A DNA stretch of 64,000 bases from the NCBI RefSeq assembly GCF_013410775.1, contig NZ_JACCFH010000001.1, forward strand, positions 2,046,001 through 2,110,000, written 5' to 3'. The stretch is from Sphaerotilus montanus (lineage in GTDB: Bacteria > Pseudomonadota > Gammaproteobacteria > Burkholderiales > Burkholderiaceae_C). Positions 19,881 to 23,834 of this stretch are shown one piece after another. The notes beneath the pieces were generated by a model that had not been told where the DNA came from, ran no database searches, and worked only from the letters and a program-made list of their open reading frames with translations. Within the stretch, counting starts at the first letter, position 1; every line of letters begins with the position of its first letter. The position numbers and the translations under genes are program-made.

Positions 19881-20336
19881 CTACAGCATCGGCATCTCGT
19901 CGACCGAGGCGTGCAGCTGCAGCTGCCCGTCCACCCGCCGGATGTCGACAAAGGGGGTCTCGGCAACGCGGATGTCCTGTTCGGCGACCGGCCCGCCCTG
20001 CACCTCCACCCGCACCCGGACGACCGCGGCCGTCACCGGCACGTCCACCGCATCCGCCAGCGAGATCGACGGGTCGGTCTGGACCTTGCGCCCGTAGTAG
20101 ACCGTCAGTCCGTCGACCTGGATGGACACGGTGTCTTCCTGGAATCCATCGCGCAGCTTGAGGTGGAGGGGCATGACCGGCCTCGTTTCCATGTCGGATC
20201 GCGTTGATGACGGGAGGCTGCGAGGCACCGGGTTCCGGCTGCCGTCCAGCGGTGACCAGACCAGCCACAGGAACAGCGCCACCAGCGCCACGAGGGTGGC
20301 ATGCAGGACGTGGCGCCATCGCATCGGGCTGGACAT
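19881..20336 (-). CDS. Hypothetical membrane-anchored protein
   Basis: The protein has 151 aa from ATG 20336, with GGAG 8 bases upstream. One TM segment (VLHATLVALVALFLWLVW) follows a short basic N-terminus. The remainder is a beta-rich soluble part with alternating hydrophobic residues (TVSIQVDGLTVYYGRKV, AAVVRVRVEVQGGPV), probably periplasmic. No family is recognised. Confidence 0.6.
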   Translation of the reverse strand: MSSPMRWRHVLHATLVALVALFLWLVWSPLDGSRNPVPRSLPSSTRSDMETRPVMPLHLKLRDGFQEDTVSIQVDGLTVYYGRKVQTDPSISLADAVDVPVTAAVVRVRVEVQGGPVAEQDIRVAETPFVDIRRVDGQLQLHASVDEMPML

Positions 20337-20476
20337 GGTCAGCACTCCTTCCGCAGAACCGGAAACAGCATCTCAGCAGCGGGGCCGGGCCGGATTGAGT
20401 ACACGCAACGCCGTTGCGGCGCCCGCCACGACCCCCTGTCGGCCGCGGCCAGGACCTGCGAAACTCCGCCCCCACC

Positions 20477-21592
20477 ATGCCCCCACGCCAGCTCCACTCC
20501 GCCTCTGCCGGCTTCGAAGCCGCCCTGCACGTCGACCTCCTGCCCGCCGGCCACCGCTCGCGCCGGCTGCACGGCCACAGCTTCTTCGCCACCGTGCGCG
20601 CCGAGCTGCCGGCGGGCTGGGCGCCGTTTCCGGGCAGCGAGGTGGCCGAGCTGCAGCGCCGCATGGAGGCCTGCGTCGCGCCGCTCGACTACGCCCGGCT
20701 CAACGACCTCGACGGCCTCGCCCAGCCGACCGACGAGAACATCGCCCGCTGGATTCGCACCCGGCTGGAGACGGCGTTCGACGTGCCCGGCATCGTGCAG
20801 ATCGGCGTGCAGAGCACGGCGCACACCGGCGTCGACCTCGACCGCGCCGGCCACGCCCACCTCTGGCGCCGCTACCGCTTCCAGGCCGCGCACCGCCTGC
20901 CCAACGTGCCGCTCGGCCACAAGTGCGGGCGCATGCACGGCCACGGCTTCGAGGTCATCCTGCACGCCGACCAGGACATCGGCAGCAGCGACCTCGGCAT
21001 CGACTACGACCGCATCGATGCGGTCTGGGCGCCGTTCCACACCCTGCTGAACTACCACTGCCTCAACGAGATCGCCGGGCTGGAGAACCCCACCAGCGAG
21101 GTCCTCTCCGCCTGGCTGTGGCAGCGCCTGAAGCCGCTGCTGCCCGAGCTGTCCTGGGTGACGGTGTACGAGACCGGCTCCTGCGGCGCCAACTTCGACG
21201 GCACGCACTACCGCATCTGGAAGGAGCTGACGCTCGACAGCGCGATCCGGCTGAAGCACGCGCCGGCCGGCAGCCCGCTCGGCGCCCTCCACGGCCACAC
21301 CTACACGCTGCGCCTGCACCTCAGCGCCGAACTCGACACCGTGCAGGGCTGGACGGTCGATTTCGGCGACGTGAAGACGCAGTTCGATCCGATCTTCAAG
21401 GCCATCGACCACCGCCCGCTGTACGAGATCGCCGACCTGCCGGACGGGGATGCGCTGTCGCTGGCGCGCTGGGTGCTGGACAAGGGCCGCGCGGCGCTGC
21501 CGGAACTCGACCGCGTCGATCTGTATGAAACGCGGGGCTGTGGCGCGATCGTGATCGCCGCGACCGCCACGCAGGAGCTGGTGCCGGTATGA
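20477..21592 (+). CDS. queD: Three-domain 6-carboxytetrahydropterin synthase (QueD-type fusion)
   Basis: The protein has 371 aa, about three times the usual QueD length of about 120. Three PTPS/QueD domains follow one another (about 1-128, 129-248, 249-371), each with a zinc-binding HGH (32-34, 154-156, 272-274). Canonical residues are spread out. The catalytic Cys is present only in the middle domain (Cys150; Ser28 and Leu268-Gly269 stand at the equivalent places). The Asp-His pair is found only in the third (311-312; DY in the first, NY in the second). The conserved Glu is in the second and third (232, 351). QueD converts dihydroneopterin triphosphate to 6-carboxytetrahydropterin for queuosine. 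It overlaps queE by 4 bases. A composite active site between domains is inferred. Confidence 0.9.
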   Translation: MPPRQLHSASAGFEAALHVDLLPAGHRSRRLHGHSFFATVRAELPAGWAPFPGSEVAELQRRMEACVAPLDYARLNDLDGLAQPTDENIARWIRTRLETAFDVPGIVQIGVQSTAHTGVDLDRAGHAHLWRRYRFQAAHRLPNVPLGHKCGRMHGHGFEVILHADQDIGSSDLGIDYDRIDAVWAPFHTLLNYHCLNEIAGLENPTSEVLSAWLWQRLKPLLPELSWVTVYETGSCGANFDGTHYRIWKELTLDSAIRLKHAPAGSPLGALHGHTYTLRLHLSAELDTVQGWTVDFGDVKTQFDPIFKAIDHRPLYEIADLPDGDALSLARWVLDKGRAALPELDRVDLYETRGCGAIVIAATATQELVPV

Positions 21593-22224
21593 CCTATTCC
21601 GTGAAAGAGCTGTTCTATACGCTGCAGGGCGAGGGCGCGCAGGCGGGCCGCGCGGCGGTGTTCTGTCGCTTCGCCGGCTGCAACCTGTGGACCGGGCGCG
21701 AGGAAGACCGCGCCGCGGCTGTCTGCACCTTCTGCGACACCGACTTCGTCGGCACCGATGGCCAGGGCGGCGGCAAGTTCGCGACGCCCGAAGCGCTGGC
21801 CGACGCGGTCGCGGCGCAGTGGCCAGCGGGTGCGGGCGGGCGGCCCTACGTCGTCTGCACCGGGGGCGAGCCGCTGCTGCAGCTGGACGTGCCGCTGGTC
21901 GACGCATTGCACGCCCGCGGCTTCGAGGTCGCTGTGGAAACCAACGGCACCCAGCCCGCCCCCGCCGGGCTGGACTGGATCTGCGTCAGCCCCAAGGCGG
22001 GTGCGGCGCTGCAGCTCACCCGCGGCGACGAGCTGAAGCTGGTCTACCCCCAACTGCTGGCGCGGCCCGAGCGCTTCGCCGCGCTGGACTTCACGCACTT
22101 CTTCCTGCAGCCGATGGACGGCCCGCAGCAGGCCGAAAACACCCGTGCGACCGCCGCCTACTGCATGGCGCATCCGCAGTGGCGGCTGGGGGTGCAGATG
22201 CACAAGGTGGTCGGCATCGACTGA
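21589..22224 (+). CDS. queE: 7-carboxy-7-deazaguanine synthase
   Basis: The protein has 211 aa. QueE is a radical-SAM enzyme converting 6-carboxytetrahydropterin to 7-carboxy-7-deazaguanine in preQ0/queuosine synthesis. The cluster motif is C-x14-C-x2-C (from CNLWTG to CTFCDTDF), the variant spacing seen in one QueE clade rather than C-x3-C-x2-C. Also visible are YTLQGEG, VCTGGEPLLQLD and VAVETNGT. The ATG overlaps the queD stop, so the two are translationally coupled and catalyse successive steps. Confidence 0.95.
   Translation: MTYSVKELFYTLQGEGAQAGRAAVFCRFAGCNLWTGREEDRAAAVCTFCDTDFVGTDGQGGGKFATPEALADAVAAQWPAGAGGRPYVVCTGGEPLLQLDVPLVDALHARGFEVAVETNGTQPAPAGLDWICVSPKAGAALQLTRGDELKLVYPQLLARPERFAALDFTHFFLQPMDGPQQAENTRATAAYCMAHPQWRLGVQMHKVVGID

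Positions 22225-22626: not shown

Positions 22627-23834
<1,208 letters not shown>

Follow-up and report, generated by a model that had tools for sequence, protein, structure and literature searches.

A stretch of Sphaerotilus montanus DNA 64,000 nucleotides long (the window; contig NZ_JACCFH010000001.1, positions 2,046,001 to 2,110,000 of the forward strand, RefSeq assembly GCF_013410775.1) carries a queD gene whose product, a predicted 6-carboxytetrahydropterin synthase, consists of three consecutive domains of the 6-pyruvoyl-tetrahydropterin synthase (PTPS) family. We propose that this three-domain, or trimodular, QueD is very probably a trimer fused by nature into one chain, which would have a single working site where domains 2 and 3 meet and in which domain 1 would complete the ring. 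The pattern of residues kept and lost across relatives and the predicted structure point to this arrangement, and the covariation between domains supports it weakly.

The queD frame is intact, running from ATG to TGA at 20477-21592 on the forward strand with no internal stop, and a Pfam scan of its product finds PF01242 in three stretches (20510-20818, 20861-21199, and 21215-21550). This bears out the initial annotation, made from the sequence alone, which had described a single 371-residue gene with three PTPS/QueD domains. Besides PTPS, the scan (E values up to 1) returned one unrelated family, below its cut-off, and no match to the QueF domain PF14489. A chance or frameshift artifact was rejected on account of the open frame, the near full-length matches in all 80 listed loci, and purifying selection on each domain.

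The three domains were set in register by their HGH motifs (residues 32, 154, and 272) and compared with Escherichia coli QueD, using residue numbers from the printed alignment. The zinc-ligand positions are occupied by Leu17, His32, and His34 in domain 1, by His139, His154, and His156 in domain 2, and by Ile257, His272, and His274 in domain 3, the three-His set being complete in domain 2 only. The HGH zinc motif that had been ascribed to each domain is therefore present three times, but the full zinc set is not, since the first histidine occurs only in domain 2. Across domains 1, 2, and 3, the catalytic cysteine position holds Ser28, Cys150, and Leu268, and the sole CxxxHGH signature of the protein (C150-G-R-M-H154-G-H156) begins at Cys150. 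The Asp-His position reads Asp71-Tyr72, Asn192-Tyr193, and Asp311-His312. The position of E. coli Glu110, which anchors the pterin, is taken by Ser113, Glu232, and Glu351. Each of these placements (Cys in domain 2 only, Asp-His in domain 3 only, Glu in domains 2 and 3 and missing from 1) agrees with the first description. All seven residues (three zinc histidines, Cys, Asp-His, and Glu) are present in the sum of domains 2 and 3, and no single domain of the window protein holds them all.

Conservation was followed in a pool of 159 proteins, comprising the window protein and 80 loci, to which the order contributed 55 sequences and other orders or lineages outside the class contributed 23; the pool corresponds to about 70 effective sequences at 80% identity, and the two collections may share species. 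The 80 loci are the best of 406 relatives recovered by scanning genome contigs with two patterns, one of which was the domain 2 motif MHGHGFE. The conservation of His154 and His156 in these loci is hence partly built in, while Asp311-His312 formed part of no search pattern. His139, Cys150, His154, His156, and Glu232 of domain 2 and Asp311 and His312 of domain 3 are each found in 159/159, and the zinc/Cys/Glu set of domain 2 together with the Asp-His of domain 3 is complete in every protein. The same set is complete with the Asp-His of domain 1 in 58 proteins, with that of domain 2 itself in 15, and none of the other six combinations is ever complete. The suggestion of a complete site between domains 2 and 3 thus coincides with the only combination kept throughout, and a chance origin of the residue pattern is rejected on the strength of this conservation. 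Two proteins outside the pool, from genomes G028 and G038, fit the same rule and both have Asp-His in domain 2 too.

The remaining positions vary. In domain 1, H32 and H34 are invariant; residue 17, the equivalent of zinc ligand His16, is Cys in 75 proteins, Arg in 70, Leu in 10, and Ala or Val in 2 each (Cys or Arg in 145/159), the Glu equivalent at residue 113 is Ser in 149, Ala in 6, and Gly in 4, and residue 72 is Tyr in 94, His in 59, Leu in 4, and Phe or Gln in 1 each. Residues 192-193 of domain 2 are mostly NY (74), followed by HH (16), DH (15), NH (15), and others. In domain 3, residue 257 is Val, Leu, Ile, or Thr in 156/159 and never His. Compared with 23 single-domain QueDs, a reference that is not entirely E. 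coli-like (18 of the 23 form a separate divergent group), the split extends over entire segments: the side with the zinc, Cys, P83/T84/E86, and Glu is retained in domain 2, whereas D70-H71 and the equivalents of G50, D54, and F55 (frequencies of 0.97, 1.00, and 0.83) are retained in domain 3. Within this second segment, domain 2 keeps the D54 equivalent in 0.74 and the rest in 0.01 to 0.30.

The predicted model of the monomer, which is of good quality (predicted local distance difference test [pLDDT] score of 87.2, predicted template modeling [pTM] score of 0.88, 39 sequences), connects consecutive domains through short turns (strands 236-240 and 245-257), and in structural alignments, consecutive domain pairs match tandem urate oxidase chains. 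In the covariation analysis, residue 307 of domain 3, located one turn before Asp311, is coupled to the first two strands of its own domain and also, in domain 2, to residues 236 and 238, which closely follow Glu232. These couplings suggest that, in each domain, the helix bearing Asp-His is turned toward the domain before it. The mean covariation between the Asp-His region of domain 3 and the pocket of domain 2 is 0.14, the highest of six pairings, the others ranging from -0.31 to -0.03.

In ordinary PTPS and QueD, the zinc, Cys, and Glu of a site come from one subunit and the Asp-His from its neighbor. Nar et al., in 1994, reportedly assigned zinc, Cys42, and Glu133 to one subunit and His89 to the adjacent one. 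PMC7546909 describes PTPS as a hexamer, a dimer of trimers whose monomers are identical and form six zinc sites where neighbors meet, in keeping with the earlier view of QueD as a multimer with sites near subunit contacts; an entry of its reference list (Burgisser 1995) refers by its title to an intersubunit catalytic triad. Because such sites lie between subunits and a single one of the three would suffice for a fused ring, the pairing of domains 2 and 3 makes sense. We propose that the three tunnel-fold (T-fold) domains, joined head to tail via short hairpins, would close the ring that three subunits make in ordinary QueD, and that two chains would probably stack head to head into a pseudo-hexamer. 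Domain 2 would provide the zinc/Cys/Glu half of a composite pocket, and domain 3, the next in the chain, would provide the Asp-His. The other two boundaries would be dead, leaving one working site per chain, with domain 1 closing the ring and kept by selection for structure. The enzyme would make 6-carboxytetrahydropterin for QueE, on the way to queuosine.

The context of the gene fits this function. The whole protein scores 144.2 bits against the QueD equivalog TIGR03367 (cut-off, 89.25), with three matching stretches, and the queD stop overlaps the queE start in an ATGA at 21589-21592. The QueE product scores 365.1 bits against TIGR04508 (cut-off, 240) and carries a C-x14-C-x2-C cluster beginning at C31, so that the coupled QueE with this cluster described at the outset is recovered. 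In the complete genome (5.07 Mb, 3 contigs, rated 100% complete), no second PTPS domain or gene was found, and QueC, TGT, and GTP cyclohydrolase I (FolE) are also encoded, linking the gene to queuosine. Given the equivalog score, the queE overlap, the failure to find any other PTPS, and the queuosine genes, the three-domain protein is most likely the cell's QueD. A separate QueD doing the real work was considered and rejected, as no other PTPS was found in the genome. Across 158 loci, queE is adjacent in 138 (directly downstream in 137 and upstream in 1) and undetected in 20 by tblastn with the window QueE, two of the latter lying at a contig end and many having flanks of only 1.5 kb. We also observed that a QueF frame of the same genome (G000:C1:44493-45047) has one strong QueF-domain match and one below the cut-off; this is consistent with a bimodular QueF, so that two T-fold enzymes of the pathway seem to be fused.

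Conservation alone cannot tell a site within one chain from a site between chains, and domain 2 might be completed by domain 3 of another chain in domain-swapped or larger rings. We regard such an exchange as improbable, since the short hairpin linkers of the model put domain 3 beside domain 2 of its own chain and since consecutive domain pairs match the tandem chains of urate oxidase. It could also be argued that domain 2 works essentially alone, with a relaxed need for Asp-His and with domains 1 and 3 as mere structure, as this domain is the best conserved (mean pairwise identity of 0.62, versus 0.47 for domain 1 and 0.54 for domain 3, in 3000 random pairs) and owns a complete residue set in 15/159. 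However, the Asp-His of domain 3 is invariant even though the zinc His and Cys are gone from that domain, the stretch before it (the G50, D54, and F55 equivalents) is kept as well, and domain 2 of the window protein has Asn-Tyr in place of Asp-His, which makes a self-sufficient domain 2 very unlikely. With two of three pockets degenerate and queE not found beside the gene in 20 of the 158 loci, the protein might even not be a QueD, serving a different pathway as a pterin enzyme of the PTPS-II or PTPS-III type or acting as a noncatalytic pterin-binding protein. This seems scarcely credible to us. According to PMC5041015, CxxxHGH denotes PTPS-I, CxxxxxHGH denotes PTPS-II, and ExxHGH denotes PTPS-III; domain 2 carries the first signature, and the window protein contains neither of the others, the residues three before HGH being R29, G151, and G269 and those six before it being H26, H148, and S266. 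The TIGR03367 score, the adjacency of queE in most loci, and the failure to find any other PTPS in this genome, which also encodes QueE, QueC, QueF, and TGT, argue in the same direction.

Several observations nevertheless weigh against the single-chain trimer with one site at the 2/3 boundary. A strict division of labor is not universal, as domain 2 alone has all seven residues in the 15 proteins mentioned above, and it retains the D54 equivalent at appreciable frequency. Glu351 of domain 3 is still present in 127/159, and in domain 1 the HGH persists in all proteins, the Asp in 137/159, and the equivalents of N75, P83, T84, and E86 in 0.91, 0.84, 0.75, and 0.77. Judged by these frequencies, what domains 1 and 3 retain exceeds the needs of a bare structural role. 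The initial annotation had suggested that domain 1 could be structural, a reading that fits the absence from it of counterparts to the zinc ligand His16, the Cys, and the Glu but leaves the invariant HGH unexplained. The covariation signal (70 effective sequences) tracks a few haplotypes and is possibly lineage specific; moreover, by the mean of the ten top pairs, three pairings of an Asp-His region with a pocket are nearly tied (2.65 for 3 versus 2, 2.61 for 2 versus 1, and 2.56 for 2 versus 3), and 3 versus 1 reaches 2.47. Finally, the tblastn search located no queE next to queD at the 7 loci from outside the class. Because the HGH of domain 1 is invariant, its zinc His is replaced by Cys or Arg in most proteins, and Glu351 is often kept, the domain 1 pocket and the domain 3 Glu could have been turned into a site that binds pterin or metal for regulation, or into a docking surface from which the product passes to the translationally overlapping QueE. 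We consider this unlikely; if true, QueD would be asymmetric, each ring holding a single catalytic site plus one or two derived ones.

In a tree of 32 three-domain proteins cut into domains and 23 single-domain QueDs, in which few columns per row were available and the bootstrap has not settled, each of the three domains forms one clade (100/100, 100/95, and 99/88). This is consistent with a single old triplication followed by spread. The ratio of nonsynonymous to synonymous substitutions (dN/dS) lies between 0.12 and 0.53 per domain in six comparisons and between 0.14 and 0.38 for domain 1. On the basis of its lowest identity and this range, domain 1 is the freest of the three, yet it is not decaying.

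The three-domain form proved widespread, as had been thought possible for fused QueDs. All of the best 80 of 406 relatives match over almost the whole length, nearly all are Burkholderiales by name, and the closest of those listed are named Sphaerotilus. In near relatives, the form occurs in 9 of 40 genomes (G001, G004, G005, G006, G007, G010, G019, G028, and G038) and provides the only PTPS matches in 7 of them; G007 additionally contains a fragment and G038 a single-domain protein. At the order level, 60 near full-length rows were found in 59 of 399 genomes; the rows outside the 55 added to the pool are the window itself (counted once), G287, G396, G028, and G038. The genome with two copies, G123, has its genes at C1:2324962-2326089 and C1:2377962-2379014, about 52 kb apart and on opposite strands. 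At the class level, the form is present in 16 of the 42 genomes picked from 323 (40 had two or three PTPS matches, and the choice did not take in all genomes with two), and among the matches listed for the 323 genomes, most are single-domain. At the phylum level (348 genomes), 10 near full-length rows were found, 7 of them from outside the class. Within the genus, three-domain queD is patchy: 5 of 12 genomes (G002, G008, G009, G011, and G012) lack any PTPS match, and the sole one in G003 is a single-domain protein without CxxxHGH. Two contig-end pieces of G369 and locus L167 (G316) were left out of the counts; in the latter, the gene lies in two frames and part of domain 2 is gone, representing either a decayed gene or an assembly error.

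Single-domain QueDs (E. coli 4ntk, 4ntn, and 4ntm and Pseudomonas aeruginosa 2oba) share with the window protein the fold, the CxxxHGH, the zinc/Cys/Glu/Asp-His set, and the pathway, the E. coli chains being 44 to 46% identical to domain 2 by structural alignment. Whereas the PTPS hexamer described in PMC7546909 consists of identical monomers and has six zinc sites, the window chain has three domains and one complete residue set. Rat, human, and Plasmodium PTPSs also use zinc and an intersubunit catalytic triad, as the title of Burgisser 1995 indicates and as in the site proposed here, but they are made of separate subunits and have different products, and the signatures of PTPS-II and PTPS-III are other ones (PMC5041015). 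Urate oxidase is likewise a tandem T-fold protein, but it has two domains, its chemistry is unrelated, and its sequence identity is about 9%. The closest known parallel is the bimodular QueF of Vibrio cholerae and E. coli, from the same pathway and the same tunnel-fold superfamily. Like the window QueD, it has tandem T-fold domains, and PMC5372742 describes its QueF motif and its Cys/Glu as lying in different domains and coming together in an interdomain site; unlike it, QueF has two domains and carries out NADPH-dependent preQ0 reduction, and V. cholerae QueF has no central tunnel. Since bimodular QueF already does so, dividing catalytic elements between fused domains is a known principle, and the three-domain QueD would repeat with three domains what QueF did with two. 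Among the papers listed by searches of the open-licence PMC literature, no title or opening of an abstract describes a QueD of three domains that retains a single site in each ring. Because PMC5445326 gives 18 domain architectures for the InterPro family, the layout itself is probably in databases already.

The protein would represent a naturally fused, one-chain form of an enzyme that is otherwise a symmetric oligomer, and evolution seems to have deleted from it the spare copies of a shared site, leaving one. The surviving residues would show which half-sites pair and in which direction around the ring. They would also make the intersubunit mechanism of QueD/PTPS testable by single point mutations, each confined to one half-site, an approach that is not available with a homohexamer.

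Table 1. Coordinates (window numbering) of queD, its domains and proposed site residues, and queE
Feature	Position	Strand	Remarks
Three-domain (trimodular) queD, 371 aa, predicted 6-carboxytetrahydropterin synthase	20477..21592	+	Open reading frame; PF01242 x3; TIGR03367
Domain 1, residues 1-121	20477..20839	+	HGH kept; zinc His16, Cys27, and Glu110 equivalents lost; proposed to complete the ring
Domain 2, residues 122-242	20840..21202	+	Zinc, Cys, NPTSE, and Glu half of the proposed active site
Domain 3, residues 243-371	21203..21589	+	Asp-His half; zinc His16 and Cys27 equivalents lost
His139 (E. coli His16), first zinc ligand	20891..20893	+	159/159
Cys150, catalytic Cys of the CxxxHGH signature	20924..20926	+	159/159
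His154-Gly-His156, second and third zinc ligands	20936..20944	+	159/159, partly built into the sample
Glu232 (E. coli Glu110)	21170..21172	+	159/159
Asp311-His312, catalytic pair proposed for the domain 2 site	21407..21412	+	159/159
queE	21589..22224	+	TIGR04508; ATG overlaps queD TGA

A promoter, a terminator, and an RNA element were looked for near queD, and none was found. Just upstream, on the opposite strand, lies a 154-residue frame (19884-20345) with no Pfam match. About 400 bases after queE, two overlapping forward-strand frames (22627-23834) match HTH_Tnp_1 and rve; we take them to be an IS3-type insertion sequence.
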